A stretch of 64,000 nt of DNA from Pseudobdellovibrionaceae bacterium. GTDB taxonomy: Bacteria; Bdellovibrionota; Bdellovibrionia; Bdellovibrionales; UBA1609. This document shows positions 11,775 to 57,098 of the stretch, one piece after another (the stretch's first letter is position 1; the number at the start of each line of letters is the position of its first letter). The DNA is taken from the NCBI GenBank assembly GCA_023954155.1, contig JAMLIO010000007.1:62001-126000 (forward strand), written 5' to 3'. The notes under the pieces were generated by a model that worked only from the letters and a program-made list of their open reading frames with translations, did no database searches and was not told where the DNA came from. Made by a program: the position numbers and the translations under genes.

Positions 11775-11835
11775 GCCGCCGTAAGCACTGGCCACCCTCC
11801 CTCAACGATGAAGGGTGGCCAGTGCTTACGGCGGC
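11775..11835. repeat. Perfect 24-bp inverted repeat with 13-nt loop
   Basis: The left arm 11775-11798 begins GCCGCCGTAAGC and ends CCACCCT; the right arm 11812-11835 is its exact reverse complement, and the loop is 11799-11811. It is GC-rich in an AT-rich island. There is no T-run on either side (TAAAGTTGG follows on plus, GTTTCTACTT on minus), so it is a weak candidate for an ordinary terminator. Confidence 0.9.
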
Positions 11836-41214: not shown

Positions 41215-41973
41215 TTATTTTTTTTGCTTTCCTTCGTCAACTAGAAAAAAAGATCTCTGGACGTGGGACAGCGTAATTGCAACCGAAGTCGAGACATTCA
41301 AACTCGCATGATCATTCACTTGTGGTATTTTTATAAGCACATCACAGGCTTTCAGAGTAGACTTTCGCAAACCTTTGCCTTCATTTCCAGCAACAATGAT
41401 GACTTTTTCAGGAAAATCGACGTCGTAAATAGATTCAGAAGCCGCAGCATCTAATCCATAAACCCAATATCCATTTTCTTTTAGCTCCGATAACTTTTGA
41501 TCTAAAGGGTGAACCACATCTACGGGAACGTGCTCGGCCCCTCCTGAGGCAATCTTACACACCATAGGAGTCAACTTTACGCTTCGATCTTGTGGGATCA
41601 AAATTCCATCGACGTTGAGTAACCAAGATGTTCGCAAAATATTACCTAAATTTGTAGGGTCCTCGACCTCATCTAAGGCTAAAAGTGTGGAGCGACTTTG
41701 GGCAAAGACCTTTTCCGACAGAACGGGCTCTGAGGCTTTCACCACAAGAGCTACACCCTGATGACCAGATCCTAACTCTTGAAAAAAATTTCTCTTCCGT
41801 TTTTCAGGTTTTACTTTTTGCGAGAGGGTTTGAATCCAAGGTAATTCCCTCAATTCTTTTTCTTTGGACTCATCAATATAAAAATTCAAGATGGCTTTGG
41901 GGCGCACTCTGACCACCTCTTGGCAAGAGTGCAGACCAATCACTATACGAGACGACTCCCCTTTTTGACTCAT
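41215..41973 (-). CDS. SpoU/TrmH-family RNA 2'-O-methyltransferase (RlmB-like)
   Basis: 252 residues. The three SPOUT-knot motifs are present: PTNLGNILRTSWLL, VAGNEGKGLRKS and IPQVNDHASLNVSTSVA. The N-terminal domain (IVIGLHSCQEVVR) is the RlmB-like substrate-binding part. It probably methylates a ribose in 23S rRNA or a tRNA; the exact site cannot be told. Its start overlaps the upstream oxygenase gene by 4 bp. Confidence 0.88.
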   Translation of the reverse strand: MSQKGESSRIVIGLHSCQEVVRVRPKAILNFYIDESKEKELRELPWIQTLSQKVKPEKRKRNFFQELGSGHQGVALVVKASEPVLSEKVFAQSRSTLLALDEVEDPTNLGNILRTSWLLNVDGILIPQDRSVKLTPMVCKIASGGAEHVPVDVVHPLDQKLSELKENGYWVYGLDAAASESIYDVDFPEKVIIVAGNEGKGLRKSTLKACDVLIKIPQVNDHASLNVSTSVAITLSHVQRSFFLVDEGKQKK

Positions 41974-42965
41974 TTGATTAAACCGATCTCCCTTAATCTT
42001 TGCATTAAAAATTCTTCTGATAAAATGTCAGGGTACTTAGGCCCTGTCTCGCCTTTGCAGCTGTCAATACAGCTTAACACAGCCTCTGGATGAGGGTGCA
42101 TAAAATATGGCATCGAATAACGACTTACGTTCTGTCCATCTTTAGGATTGACCACTCTGTGGGTGGTAGACGGAATCACATCATTAGTGATTCTTGCAAG
42201 CATGTCTCCCGCATCTACGATCAGATTGTTACGATCCGTTTCTACAGCTAGCCATCTACCTTGACGATCTAAAAGCTCAAGCCCCGAAGTGGAGGCACTG
42301 ACTAAAATTGTAATCAGGTTAATGTCTTCATGCGCTGCTGCTCTCACACAATTTGGATCTGTACCTTCTGCAATAGGCGGATAGTGCAGTAATCTTAAAA
42401 TAGAATTTCCATCTTGAGTGAGCTTGGCAAAATAATCCGTGTCCAGCCCAAGCGGTCCCGTAAGAGCCTCAAGCATGATACGTCCTACATCATCTAACTT
42501 GTCGTAAAACTCTGTAAATACCGCTTCAAACTCTGACACCTCTTGAGGCCAAATGTTGGCAGGATAAGTTGCGGATAAAGGATGTTCCATTTTTAAAGGA
42601 CGCCCTACATGCCAAAACTCTTTCAGATCAGGAGCAGGGCTGTCTTTAGCGTGTTCGGTTCCAAAAGGAGTGTAACCACGCACTCCACCGCCGCCACCAT
42701 AAACGTATTGTTTTTTTGTGGTCTCATCTAAGTCAAAAAACTTTTGGCTTAGATCATAGGCCTTGTCGAGTAATGACACTTCAATAGGATGATCTTTTAA
42801 AATGATAAATCCGCTGTCTTTTAAACCGTAAAATAAATCTTCGATGAACTTTTGTTTTGTGGTGCTGTCCCCAGAAATATAATCTTTTAGGCTCAACTCC
42901 AGAACATCGGCTTTAGCACTCGCACCTATCGACTTTGACTTTGATACTTCGGTTTGCATATCCAT
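41970..42965 (-). CDS. Isopenicillin-N-synthase-like 2-oxoglutarate/Fe(II) oxygenase
   Basis: The start is uncertain: the frame opens with GTG at 43001; I choose ATG 42965, seven bases after GGGGGA. The double-stranded beta-helix iron site is clear: HEDINLITIL (H and D), later STTHRVVNP (H), with Arg in SRYSMPYFMHP binding the co-substrate. The N-terminal DUF (GFIILKDHPIEVSLLDKAYD) is the usual non-haem dioxygenase N-domain. The substrate is unknown. It is translationally coupled to the RNA methyltransferase. Confidence 0.85.
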   Translation of the reverse strand: MDMQTEVSKSKSIGASAKADVLELSLKDYISGDSTTKQKFIEDLFYGLKDSGFIILKDHPIEVSLLDKAYDLSQKFFDLDETTKKQYVYGGGGGVRGYTPFGTEHAKDSPAPDLKEFWHVGRPLKMEHPLSATYPANIWPQEVSEFEAVFTEFYDKLDDVGRIMLEALTGPLGLDTDYFAKLTQDGNSILRLLHYPPIAEGTDPNCVRAAAHEDINLITILVSASTSGLELLDRQGRWLAVETDRNNLIVDAGDMLARITNDVIPSTTHRVVNPKDGQNVSRYSMPYFMHPHPEAVLSCIDSCKGETGPKYPDILSEEFLMQRLREIGLIK

Positions 42966-43064
42966 AACTTCTTCCCCCATGTCCTTATTTTCATACGACA
43001 CTGTCTAAATAAAGAGCAACCAGAAACCCAAACGCAATGCTCTAAACTGGTTTTTAACTGCTTT

Positions 43065-43760
43065 TTAGCGCAAGAGATCCAAATATTTTTGCAACTTCGC
43101 TTTAGGATAAGCCTCATTGATCACGGAACGTCCGACCACTAGGGCGTCAGCTCCAAGCTCAAGGGCCTTTTGCGGTTCTAAAACTCGGGCTTGATCGTCG
43201 GTGGAGTCTTCTTTAAGTCTGATTCCAGGTACAACCGTAAAAAAATCGGGGTGTACATATTTGACCTTAGACACTTCATGCCCTGCGCACACCACACCTG
43301 TTAAGCCACTTTCTGCGACAAGATCCGTCAATGTCAAAACAGCATCATCTAAGCTGGTTCCCGTAAATCCTGGAATAGGATTTTGAGTGCCATCAAAAGA
43401 TGTCAAAACTGTCACACCTAAGACTTTAAAAAACTGTGACGTGTTTATCTGTTGCTCTAGCTTTGCGACTTGTTCCATGGCTTTGAGCCCACTTCCAGCA
43501 TGAATTGTGACATAACTGATCCCCTTATCCGCACAGGCGCGCAAGGATTCCACCATGGTATTTGGGATGTCATAAAATTTAGGATCATAAAAAATAGGCC
43601 CGTAGTCTGCTAATTTTTGCCATTCTAAAGGAGTGGCTTTTAAGCTTAAGCGCGGTCCGACCTTAAAGCCTCCAGCTAAAGGGCTTAACTCTTGCGCCAG
43701 CTCTAGGGCTTTGCCCCACTCGTTCACATCCAATGCGATAAAAATTGGATTTTTCATCAT
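43065..43760 (-). CDS. pyrF: Orotidine 5'-phosphate decarboxylase
   Basis: 231 residues. Catalyses the last step of UMP synthesis. Family core: FIALDVNEW, GGFKVGPRLS, and the YDPKFYDIPNT motif with the catalytic Asp-Lys network; phosphate loop near VPGIRLKEDS and ALVVGRSVINE. Starts at ATG 43760 or 43757. A long hexanucleotide repeat ends about 30 bp upstream of the start. Confidence 0.95.
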   Translation of the reverse strand: MMKNPIFIALDVNEWGKALELAQELSPLAGGFKVGPRLSLKATPLEWQKLADYGPIFYDPKFYDIPNTMVESLRACADKGISYVTIHAGSGLKAMEQVAKLEQQINTSQFFKVLGVTVLTSFDGTQNPIPGFTGTSLDDAVLTLTDLVAESGLTGVVCAGHEVSKVKYVHPDFFTVVPGIRLKEDSTDDQARVLEPQKALELGADALVVGRSVINEAYPKAKLQKYLDLLR

Positions 43761-43783
43761 ATCTTCTTTTCCCTTTAACCGCG

Positions 43784-43900
43784 CTTTTTACTTTTACTTT
43801 TACTTTTACTTTTACTTTTACTTTTACTTTTACTTTTACTTTTACTTTTACTTTTACTTTTACTTTTACTTTTACTTTTACTTTTACTTTTACTTTTACT
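43784..43900. repeat. Hexanucleotide microsatellite, 18 perfect CTTTTA units
   Basis: From 43791 to 43898 the plus strand is 18 uninterrupted copies of CTTTTA (TAAAAG on minus), with one imperfect unit before and CT after. It lies in the proS-pyrF gap upstream of pyrF. The long plus-strand Tyr/Phe frame across it is an artefact of the repeat. Confidence 0.97.
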
Positions 43901-43945
43901 AAATGTAGCTGCGATCTTTGGCTTTGTGCAAATCTTAATTTGTTT

Positions 43946-45664
43946 TTATTTGCAGTTTTCCCAGCTGGTTTTGATGGTTGCAGCTGCAGACGCCAAAGGT
44001 GCGGAACTCTTAGCTTGTGTGCTGCGCACCACTACTTCCACCTCACCTTGATCAAAGCCACGTTTTCCAATCACCACTCTCACAGGAAGACCCATCAGAT
44101 CGGCATCTTTAAACTTCACCCCAGGGCGTTCGTTGCGATCATCAACAAAGGCCGAAAGCCCCAAAGCACCCAGTTCACCTAAAAGCTTTTGAGTGTATTC
44201 CATCACATCAGCTTCCTTAGGGTCTAAAATGCAAAGGTGAAGATCATAGGGCGCAATGCTCTTGGGCCAAATGATCCCGTCTTTATCATGGGACTGCTCT
44301 ATGGCGGCTTGCACGGTTCGGCCTACACCAATACCGTAGCAACCCATCTCTATGGGTTTAAGTTTACCTGATTCGTCTTGATAAGTGGCTTTCATGGCAG
44401 CACTGTACTTAGTCCCTAAATAAAAAATATGTCCAACTTCAATGCCGCGCACCTCGGTCAATGCGCCTTGACCATCAGGACTCGGGTCGCCTGCCTTAGC
44501 AAAAGCGATATCTACAAACTTAGCAATTTTAAAATCTACATCAGGTTTTAGGCCCTTTACATGGTACCCGTCTTTATTGGCACCCACGATGTAGCTTTTA
44601 AAGTCTTTAAGGTAGTGGTCAGCGAACACTTTGACATCCAAACCTTGTGGGCCACAACTTCCTGGACGCGCACCCGTTAAAGCTAGGACCTCTTCATCAG
44701 AAAGCATCACGGGCTCTTCTTTAAAACCAAACACATTTTTTAATTTAATGGGATTAAGTTCGTCGCAGCCTCTTAATAGGATGGCATAAGACTTGCCATC
44801 GGCCTTTAAAAATAAAGTCTTTACCAGATGTTCTTCTGGTATATCCATAAATTTCGACAGAGCTTCAATGGTACGAACATTAGGAGTGGCAAACTCTTCT
44901 ATTGTGGCAAAAACAGGCACCCCTTCTGTGGCCTGATACACACGAGGGCAAATCTCACGATTGGCCGCAAAGTCAGAAGCCTCACTCACGAGTAACAGGT
45001 CCTCTCCTACTTGTGCTAAAACCTGAAACTCTTCAGTCAAAGACCCACCGATTGCACCAGCGTCGGCTTGCACGACACGGTACTCTAAGCCCAAACGATC
45101 AAAAATACGAATATAGGCCTTTCGTAAATTGGCGTAACTGGCCTTTGCTGTTTCCGAGTCCACATCAAAACTGTAAGCGTCTTTCATGATGAACTCTCGT
45201 CCTCGCATCAGACCAAAACGGGGGCGAATTTCATCACGGTACTTAGTTTGAATTTGATATAAACACTGAGGCAAGTCACGATAGCTAGAGATGTCATTAC
45301 GAATATAATCCGTCACCGCTTCTTCGTGAGTCGCTCCAAGACAAAAATCATGATCATTACGGTTTTTAAATTTTAACAATTCAGGAATTCCTGCGCGGCC
45401 TGTCTCTTCCCACAAAGTTAAGGGCTGCACCATGGGCATTAAAATCTCTTGGCAGCCCGAAGCCTCTAACTCTTCGCGGATGATATTTTCAAATTTTCTG
45501 ATAGCCCTTAAAGCTAAGGTACCATAAGTGTAAATCCCAGGAGCTAATTTTTTAATTAAACCTGCGCGAATAAGAAGCTGCTGACTAGGAATATCAGCAT
45601 CCCCAGGAGCCTCTCTGAATGTTTTATGAAACCGACTTGACCACTTTATATGGTGCTGTTGCAT
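43946..45664 (-). CDS. proS: Prolyl-tRNA synthetase (bacterial type)
   Basis: ATG 45664 (MQQHHIKWSS), five bases after GGAG; the frame opens at a GTG six bases earlier. 572 residues. Class II motifs: PGIYTYGTLALRAIRKFENI (motif 1 area), YRDEIRPRFGLMRGREFIMK (motif 2), GIGVGRTVQAAIEQ (motif 3). The bacterial editing insert (~225-390) is present, so misacylated Ala-tRNA-Pro can be hydrolysed. Located 54 bp after the NtrX-like gene. Confidence 0.96.
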   Translation of the reverse strand: MQQHHIKWSSRFHKTFREAPGDADIPSQQLLIRAGLIKKLAPGIYTYGTLALRAIRKFENIIREELEASGCQEILMPMVQPLTLWEETGRAGIPELLKFKNRNDHDFCLGATHEEAVTDYIRNDISSYRDLPQCLYQIQTKYRDEIRPRFGLMRGREFIMKDAYSFDVDSETAKASYANLRKAYIRIFDRLGLEYRVVQADAGAIGGSLTEEFQVLAQVGEDLLLVSEASDFAANREICPRVYQATEGVPVFATIEEFATPNVRTIEALSKFMDIPEEHLVKTLFLKADGKSYAILLRGCDELNPIKLKNVFGFKEEPVMLSDEEVLALTGARPGSCGPQGLDVKVFADHYLKDFKSYIVGANKDGYHVKGLKPDVDFKIAKFVDIAFAKAGDPSPDGQGALTEVRGIEVGHIFYLGTKYSAAMKATYQDESGKLKPIEMGCYGIGVGRTVQAAIEQSHDKDGIIWPKSIAPYDLHLCILDPKEADVMEYTQKLLGELGALGLSAFVDDRNERPGVKFKDADLMGLPVRVVIGKRGFDQGEVEVVVRSTQAKSSAPLASAAATIKTSWENCK

Positions 45665-45723
45665 CTTCACTCCGTATCCTCTGCCTTAATGTCAAAACGA
45701 TCCTTAAGAAAAGACAGCTATTC

Positions 45724-56402: not shown

Positions 56403-57098
56403 ATGGCAAAGAAAAAGGCACCTAAAAAACCAGCAAAAAAGAAATCTCCTGCCAAAAAGGCAGCTTCTAAGAAAAAATCACCTGCTAAAAAAGTAGCTAA
56501 AAAGGCAACAAAGAAAAAAGCAGCCAAAAAAAAGGCCTCTAAAAAAACAACAAAAAAGAAAGTAGCCAAAAAGCCTGCCAAGAAGAAGGTGGCAAAAAAA
56601 GCGGCCAAGAAAAAAAGCACAAAAAAAGTCGCTAAAAAAACCACAACTAAAAAACCAGCCGCTAAAGCTGCCAAAACTAAAGTGGCCGCTGGCTCAAAAT
56701 CTAAAGCTGAAGAGATCATTAAAGATATAAAAAATATTGCCGCTGGCGCATCTGGTTCAGCTGTCACCGCCCGCGAGTCCAGAAAGCCAGAAGCTCCCGA
56801 CTTGGACGACATTGTAAAATCTAAAGGCACCACTGTTGAACCTATCAATCCTTTTATTGTTGAAGATAAAAGAAAAAACGATTTGTCATCTGAAGATGTG
56901 TTTGCAGATTACGAAGACGAAGATCTTAATGATGACAGCAACGTCATGAGTCTTGAAGAGCTTGATGAGTTCAACGACGACGATGAGGACGACGACATCC
57001 TAGGAAACTTAGACGACGATTTGGACTCTTCAGATGATCTATTTAATGATGACGAAGACGAAATCATTGAAGAAGAGGATGATGACGATTACTTCTGA
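56403..57098 (+). CDS. Histone H1-like protein with acidic C-terminal tail
   Basis: ATG 56403 after GTGGAG; 231 residues. Residues 1-~95 are almost only Lys, Ala, Pro, Ser and Thr in KKxAKK-type repeats, like bacterial and chlamydial H1-like nucleoid proteins. A short neutral linker (~95-165) includes VARESRKPEAPDLDD. The last ~70 residues are strongly acidic (many Asp/Glu, ending EEEDDDDYF). A basic DNA-binding part joined to an acidic tail may self-regulate. Followed by a strong terminator. Confidence 0.8.
   Translation: MAKKKAPKKPAKKKSPAKKAASKKKSPAKKVAKKATKKKAAKKKASKKTTKKKVAKKPAKKKVAKKAAKKKSTKKVAKKTTTKKPAAKAAKTKVAAGSKSKAEEIIKDIKNIAAGASGSAVTARESRKPEAPDLDDIVKSKGTTVEPINPFIVEDKRKNDLSSEDVFADYEDEDLNDDSNVMSLEELDEFNDDDEDDDILGNLDDDLDSSDDLFNDDEDEIIEEEDDDDYF

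Follow-up and report, generated by a model that had tools for sequence, protein, structure and literature searches.

A hexanucleotide tandem array between proS and pyrF of a Pseudobdellovibrionaceae bacterium as a probable product of near-neutral replication slippage

The spacer between proS and pyrF in this Pseudobdellovibrionaceae genome is mostly taken up by a perfect tandem array of the hexamer TTTTAC. The array is far beyond chance and is an ordinary member of the 5–9-bp class of bacterial tandem repeats. We consider it probable, and with good confidence, that it is a near-neutral product of slipped replication, whose steps exceed the reach of mismatch repair, and that it is tolerated at its site in an operon spacer. 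From its position, its company in the genome and the state of the mismatch repair genes we infer that slippage is the cause, that copy number varies freely and that pyrF is affected little or not at all.

Within the window, the 64,000-nucleotide stretch of DNA that was analysed, the array runs from 43786 to 43900 (115 bp) and holds 19.17 copies of the unit (19.2 in round figures), 100% identical to one another; this length is that of one draft assembly of 15 contigs. The unit reads TTTTAC on the plus strand and AAAAGT on the minus strand, which carries both neighbouring genes. The sequence-only reading had recognized the tract, although its figures were slightly low (18 copies and 108 bp, within 43784–43900), and had placed it correctly before pyrF, with a distance of about 30 bp to the start codon that is 25 bp as measured. 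Upstream, proS (43946–45670, minus strand) is an open reading frame of 574 aa for prolyl-tRNA synthetase, matched by PF00587, PF04073 and PF03129, with its stop at 43946. Downstream, pyrF (43065–43760, minus strand) encodes a 231-aa orotidine 5'-phosphate decarboxylase (PF00215, E 6e-33) from an ATG at 43760. The 185-bp spacer thus consists, on the minus strand, of a unique stretch of 45 bp (43901–43945) that follows the proS stop, the array itself, and a unique, purine-rich leader of 25 nt (43761–43785), in which AGGGA at 43770–43774 was picked out by eye as a possible ribosome-binding site. A megablast search with 10 kb around the array gave no match in a phage collection.

The arrangement of the two genes is shared with other members of the group. 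pyrF was detected in 25 of 28 relatives, and 19 of their loci were read. In 14 of these, proS is located upstream of pyrF in the same orientation, with a gap of −11 to 128 bp in 12 and of 6 bp or less, overlaps included, in seven (start codons in the relatives having been picked mechanically); the remaining two same-strand loci have gaps of 382 and 1320 bp. Four of the other five loci have no proS in the 3–4 kb available, and one has it on the opposite strand. Since the gap is so short in most of the loci, pyrF is probably transcribed together with proS by read-through. No array of TTTTAC was found before pyrF in the relatives searched, and G002, whose pyrF scores highest among them (about 50% identity), has a spacer of 128 bp without one. 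On the far side of pyrF, a gene for a SpoU-type methylase follows within 200 bp in 15 of the 19 loci. In the window a gene for a 2OG-Fe(II) oxygenase (41970–43001) stands between pyrF and the methylase gene; 100 of the 143 genomes of the class have this gene, but none of the 19 pyrF loci read does, and it has no bearing on the array.

Signals of a kind that might assign the spacer a regulatory function were sought in DNA and RNA. Neither a sigma-70-type promoter nor an intrinsic terminator was matched between 43700 and 44050, in a scan that covered promoters of the sigma-70 type and not those of other sigma types, and there was no Rfam match up to E 1 between 42900 and 44200. The predicted RNA fold of 43730–43960 is no better than that of shuffled sequences (z −0.54), with the array largely unpaired. 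The spacer thus shows neither of the marks of a pyr attenuator or riboswitch-type leader, which are membership of a known RNA family and a stable hairpin upstream of pyrF.

The array has much company in its own genome. A census of perfect tracts with units of 1–30 bp, covering 1,201,225 bp (49% of the genome; contigs C1, C2 and C5 whole, plus the window), found 11 arrays of at least 26 bp, ranging from 26 to 122 bp. The sequence-only reading had called such a tract rare in this chromosome, a description that the ten other arrays contradict. Seven have 6-bp units, three 7-bp and one 9-bp, and they comprise ten different words: CGGTGA, CCAAAA, TTTAGG, ATTCGT, TTTTAC (twice), TTTCTA, AGCTGAT, GTGTTTG, AATTCTA and ACTAAACTA. 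Tracts of shorter units remain short, the longest with units of 1, 2, 3, 4 and 5 bp being 11, 12, 15, 13 and 14 bp, respectively. For period 6, the lengths fall into two separate parts, a background of up to 16 bp, with a single 22-bp tract as the exception, and seven arrays of 34–122 bp, the pyrF array among them; perfect head-to-tail copies of a short unit in such excess of chance make it a tandem repeat of the variable-number (VNTR) type. Contig C3, outside the census, has 13 consecutive G at its end. Among relatives, sampled in four stretches of 100 kb, a single array of 26 bp or more was present, formed by 42 bp of a pentamer in G010, against 3.7 expected in these 400 kb at the density of the present genome; this difference is not significant (the probability of one or fewer is 0.12), and a greater richness in arrays than in the relatives is not claimed.

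The arrays are unevenly placed with respect to genes. Frames of at least 100 aa cover 90% of the censused DNA, but eight of the 11 arrays lie outside them, a result that has a probability of about 1e-6 if arrays are placed at random; the eight include all three heptamer arrays. The three in-frame arrays are all hexamers, which add dipeptides to a protein: (NQ)n, (SP)n and (NR)n. The first is a 115-bp CCAAAA array (C1:527138–527252) that inserts about 19 Asn-Gln pairs in mid-domain into an aldehyde dehydrogenase, whose Pfam match is split in two stretches, the first of them ending at the array. The second is in a protein with a GNAT-type domain, and the third in an unassigned 149-aa frame on C5, whose Pfam match was below the cut-off and on a low-complexity stretch and was taken to reflect composition. 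Gene calls around the arrays are mechanical except where based on Pfam, and the neighbours that Pfam did identify, with eight proteins scanned, have enzymatic roles in general metabolism or housekeeping. The excess of arrays between genes is compatible with purifying selection, and also with selection for regulation.

A defect in mismatch repair would be a ready cause of such arrays, but it is ruled out by intact mutS1 (794 bits, an 844-aa frame with no stop) and mutL (426 bits, a 619-aa frame with no stop). Loss of SbcD was considered as well; the SbcD model has no match in this genome, but the cut-off was also missed in 27 of the 28 relatives and was passed by only one of the 29 genomes searched, so that its loss is not distinctive. 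The unit sizes suggest a different connection with mismatch repair. In E. coli, according to older work cited in PMC5427490, MutS allows loops to be repaired up to a size of four nucleotides, and in the same paper heptamer repeats in S. pombe are reported to be unaffected by loss of msh2, msh6 or mlh1. Units of 6, 7 and 9 bp, with no tract of 1–5-bp units longer than 15 bp, fit an escape from mismatch repair. The array may thus have begun as a short stretch rich in A and G within the proS-pyrF operon spacer, which was duplicated and then extended six bases at a time as replication slipped. With six or seven bases, the loops would exceed MutS-type repair, with its limit of up to four in E. coli, and would escape correction; working mismatch repair would hold short units down, only those of about six bases or more would run away, and selection would keep the resulting arrays out of most genes. 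The change in length by slipped replication in six-base steps proposed in the sequence-only reading is likely on established knowledge of slippage. The pentamer array of G010 is a counterpoint, its 5-bp unit being at the edge of the argument from mismatch repair.

Among the closest known systems are the heptamer arrays of Xanthomonas and Nostoc. These adjoin many genes of general metabolism, and for this reason phase variation was judged unlikely (PMC4692102). Those arrays and the present ones share head-to-tail short words and a mostly intergenic position beside general-metabolism genes. In Xanthomonas and Nostoc, however, there is one G-rich word type genome-wide that is capable of forming G-quadruplexes (PMC4692102), whereas here there is nearly one word per array, and that at pyrF is A-rich. 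In mutL of Salmonella and E. coli, an internal 6-bp repeat of three copies has a known on/off effect (PMC2955026). It resembles the pyrF array in its hexameric unit, and its length changes six bases at a time through slipped-strand mispairing, as is likely at pyrF, but its three copies lie inside the coding gene. Among the matches listed for hexanucleotide VNTR literature in the open-licence part of PubMed Central, none concerned the pyrF array by its title or the start of its abstract.

The alternative that survives best is that the array acts as a ‘rheostat’, in which copy number alters the length of the A-rich leader that separates the proS stop from the pyrF ribosome-binding site, and with it translational coupling or mRNA stability, so that slippage would give graded levels of pyrF expression in a population. 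The array ends 25 bp before pyrF and is predicted to be largely unpaired as RNA, and there is a precedent in Haemophilus influenzae, where the hmw1A and hmw2A promoters contain 9–28 copies of a 7-bp repeat and more copies generally mean less mRNA (PMC2424069). The repeats of hmw1A and hmw2A are, by the same source, of similar unit size and likewise just upstream of a gene (PMC2424069). This precedent, however, is the promoter of a surface adhesin, whereas the array considered here is in an operon spacer before a housekeeping gene, and there is no evident gain from switching pyrF. Nine other words form arrays next to or inside unrelated genes, which argues against the tuning of pyrimidine synthesis, specific to pyrF, that the sequence-only reading had put forward. 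On balance a rheostat at pyrF is unsupported, and we regard it as unlikely.

Occurrences of the same word elsewhere bear on this alternative in both directions. A pattern search of the whole genome found one other array of TTTTAC (C2:299864–299897; 34 bp, 5.7 copies), situated 27 bp downstream of an nfu-like ORF and 15 bp upstream of a pdxH ORF and on the same strand relative to the genes as at pyrF, though its flanks look unrelated to those of the pyrF array. The same word in the same placement favours a rheostat, and the array before pdxH, being in the same setting, may point to a function within the leader. That the arrays before both genes, which serve vitamin and nucleotide synthesis, are slippage-driven dials of leader length, giving graded and heritable expression within a clone, is a stronger proposition that we hold to be decidedly unlikely; if it held, phase variation would reach into core metabolism. 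Against a rheostat, four copies in a row occur in only two of the 143 genomes of the class, this genome (the sole member of its genus among them) and G059, where they lie at the 3' end of an open frame.

A wider scan for five copies in a row, over the 84,980 species of genome_contigs (from which the present genome was possibly left out), gave 60 stretches of 5.2–19.3 copies in many bacterial and archaeal groups, as judged by record titles. Where a frame of 150 aa or more, called mechanically, encloses the array, the coding strand reads AAAAGT in all 13 cases, encoding lysine-rich repeats; for all enclosing frames of at least 80 aa the count is 19 of 22. Between codirectional genes, AAAAGT is on the gene strand at ten of 13 loci, a tally that includes the pdxH array among the ten and excludes that at pyrF. 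This preference could be taken in favour of a rheostat, but it is not significant (p 0.09). Together the strand counts suggest that purine-rich sense strands are generally preferred, and they are no evidence for a function at pyrF.

The array may also be real but with a copy number set by the assembler or by read length, an explanation that we regard as quite improbable. Five of the 11 arrays, that at pyrF included, are nearly equal in length, at 107–122 bp, as if capped, and this clustering of the longest arrays could reflect the reads or the assembler. Against this, the words differ between arrays, and the pyrF array has unique flanks and lies within a conserved gene order. Breakage of contigs by arrays, as under a cap by read length, was not seen: none of the 30 contig ends has an array of at least 20 bp, the nearest case being a heptamer tract of 18 bp within the final 400 bases of C9.

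Very improbable, in our judgement, is a contingency locus in which the array sets the spacing between elements of a pyrF promoter, or between an activator site and the promoter. Phase-variable loci of this class are known and the array is upstream of a gene, and the sequence-only reading had accordingly suggested that six-base steps would shift promoter spacing. The stretch 43700–44050, however, has no sigma-70-like site, other promoter types being outside the scan, and transcription probably reads through from proS into pyrF, the two genes overlapping or being no more than 6 bp apart in seven of the 19 loci read in relatives. The array is intergenic, with no promoter (on the sigma-70 scan) or switchable frame around it, and neither pyrF nor proS, as identified by Pfam, is a surface, restriction or virulence gene of the kind that contingency loci serve. 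That the array is a relic or readthrough tail of ProS, encoding (Ser-Lys)n, can be set aside as extremely improbable: the proS frame past its stop is open through the whole array to a stop just after it, as the frame past the nfu-like stop is open through the pdxH array, but the proS stop is a plain TAA, the alignment reaches residues 551–574 of 574 in all 15 relatives' loci with a proS match, and two of the three frames of the word are open (that of pyrF is closed, with one TAA per unit), making the coincidence a weak one.

The census also brought to light a second kind of repeat. In the 1.20 Mb there are 44 perfect inverted repeats, some of them nested, with arms of at least 20 bp no more than 200 bp apart, against one in the relatives' 400 kb, where 14.7 would be expected (P 7e-6). 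All but one (43) are outside the window, the window's only example being at 11775–11835, with 24-bp arms and a 13-bp centre. Many centre on a few families of dispersed elements of 60–100 bp, at least three by eye, around which the palindrome arms are perfect, up to 104 bp long and different from copy to copy (for example C2:300596–300863, C2:56100–56332 and C1:140035–140223; C1, C2 and C5 being contigs of the bacterium's own genome, G000). These palindromes look as if insertion or replication had copied the flank in inverted form. One family, of 80 bp, has 38 matches of its 26-base end motif in the genome, none of them inside the window; beyond this genome, one match with three mismatches occurs in G065, and the remaining 141 genomes have none. 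The arms are 21–76 bp long, perfectly paired and copy-specific in 13 of the 16 copies measured, and 5–10 bp in the other three, one of which is at a contig end. Because six contig ends fall in its copies (C2:1, C7:1, C7:145977, C8:1, C10:1 and C12:1), the 80-bp element probably breaks the assembly. Two heptamer arrays, C1:581622–581666 and C2:58575–58600, are within 140 bp of this element, and the pyrF array is not; at C2:58411–58633, the palindrome arms themselves bear heptamers in inverted copies. A further repeated region in the window, at 56487–56666, consists of imperfect A-rich repeats with periods of 11–69 bp and is perhaps the tail of a lysine/alanine-rich protein. The palindrome-centred elements are of more interest than the array and deserve separate study.

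Taken alone, the pyrF array provides a candidate variable-number marker, and it cautions against inferring regulation from any repeat near a start codon. The presence of 6-, 7- and 9-bp arrays without 1–5-bp ones in half a genome, with mutS and mutL intact, is what escape from mismatch repair would predict, and this genome offers eleven natural tracts in which that escape may be put to the test.
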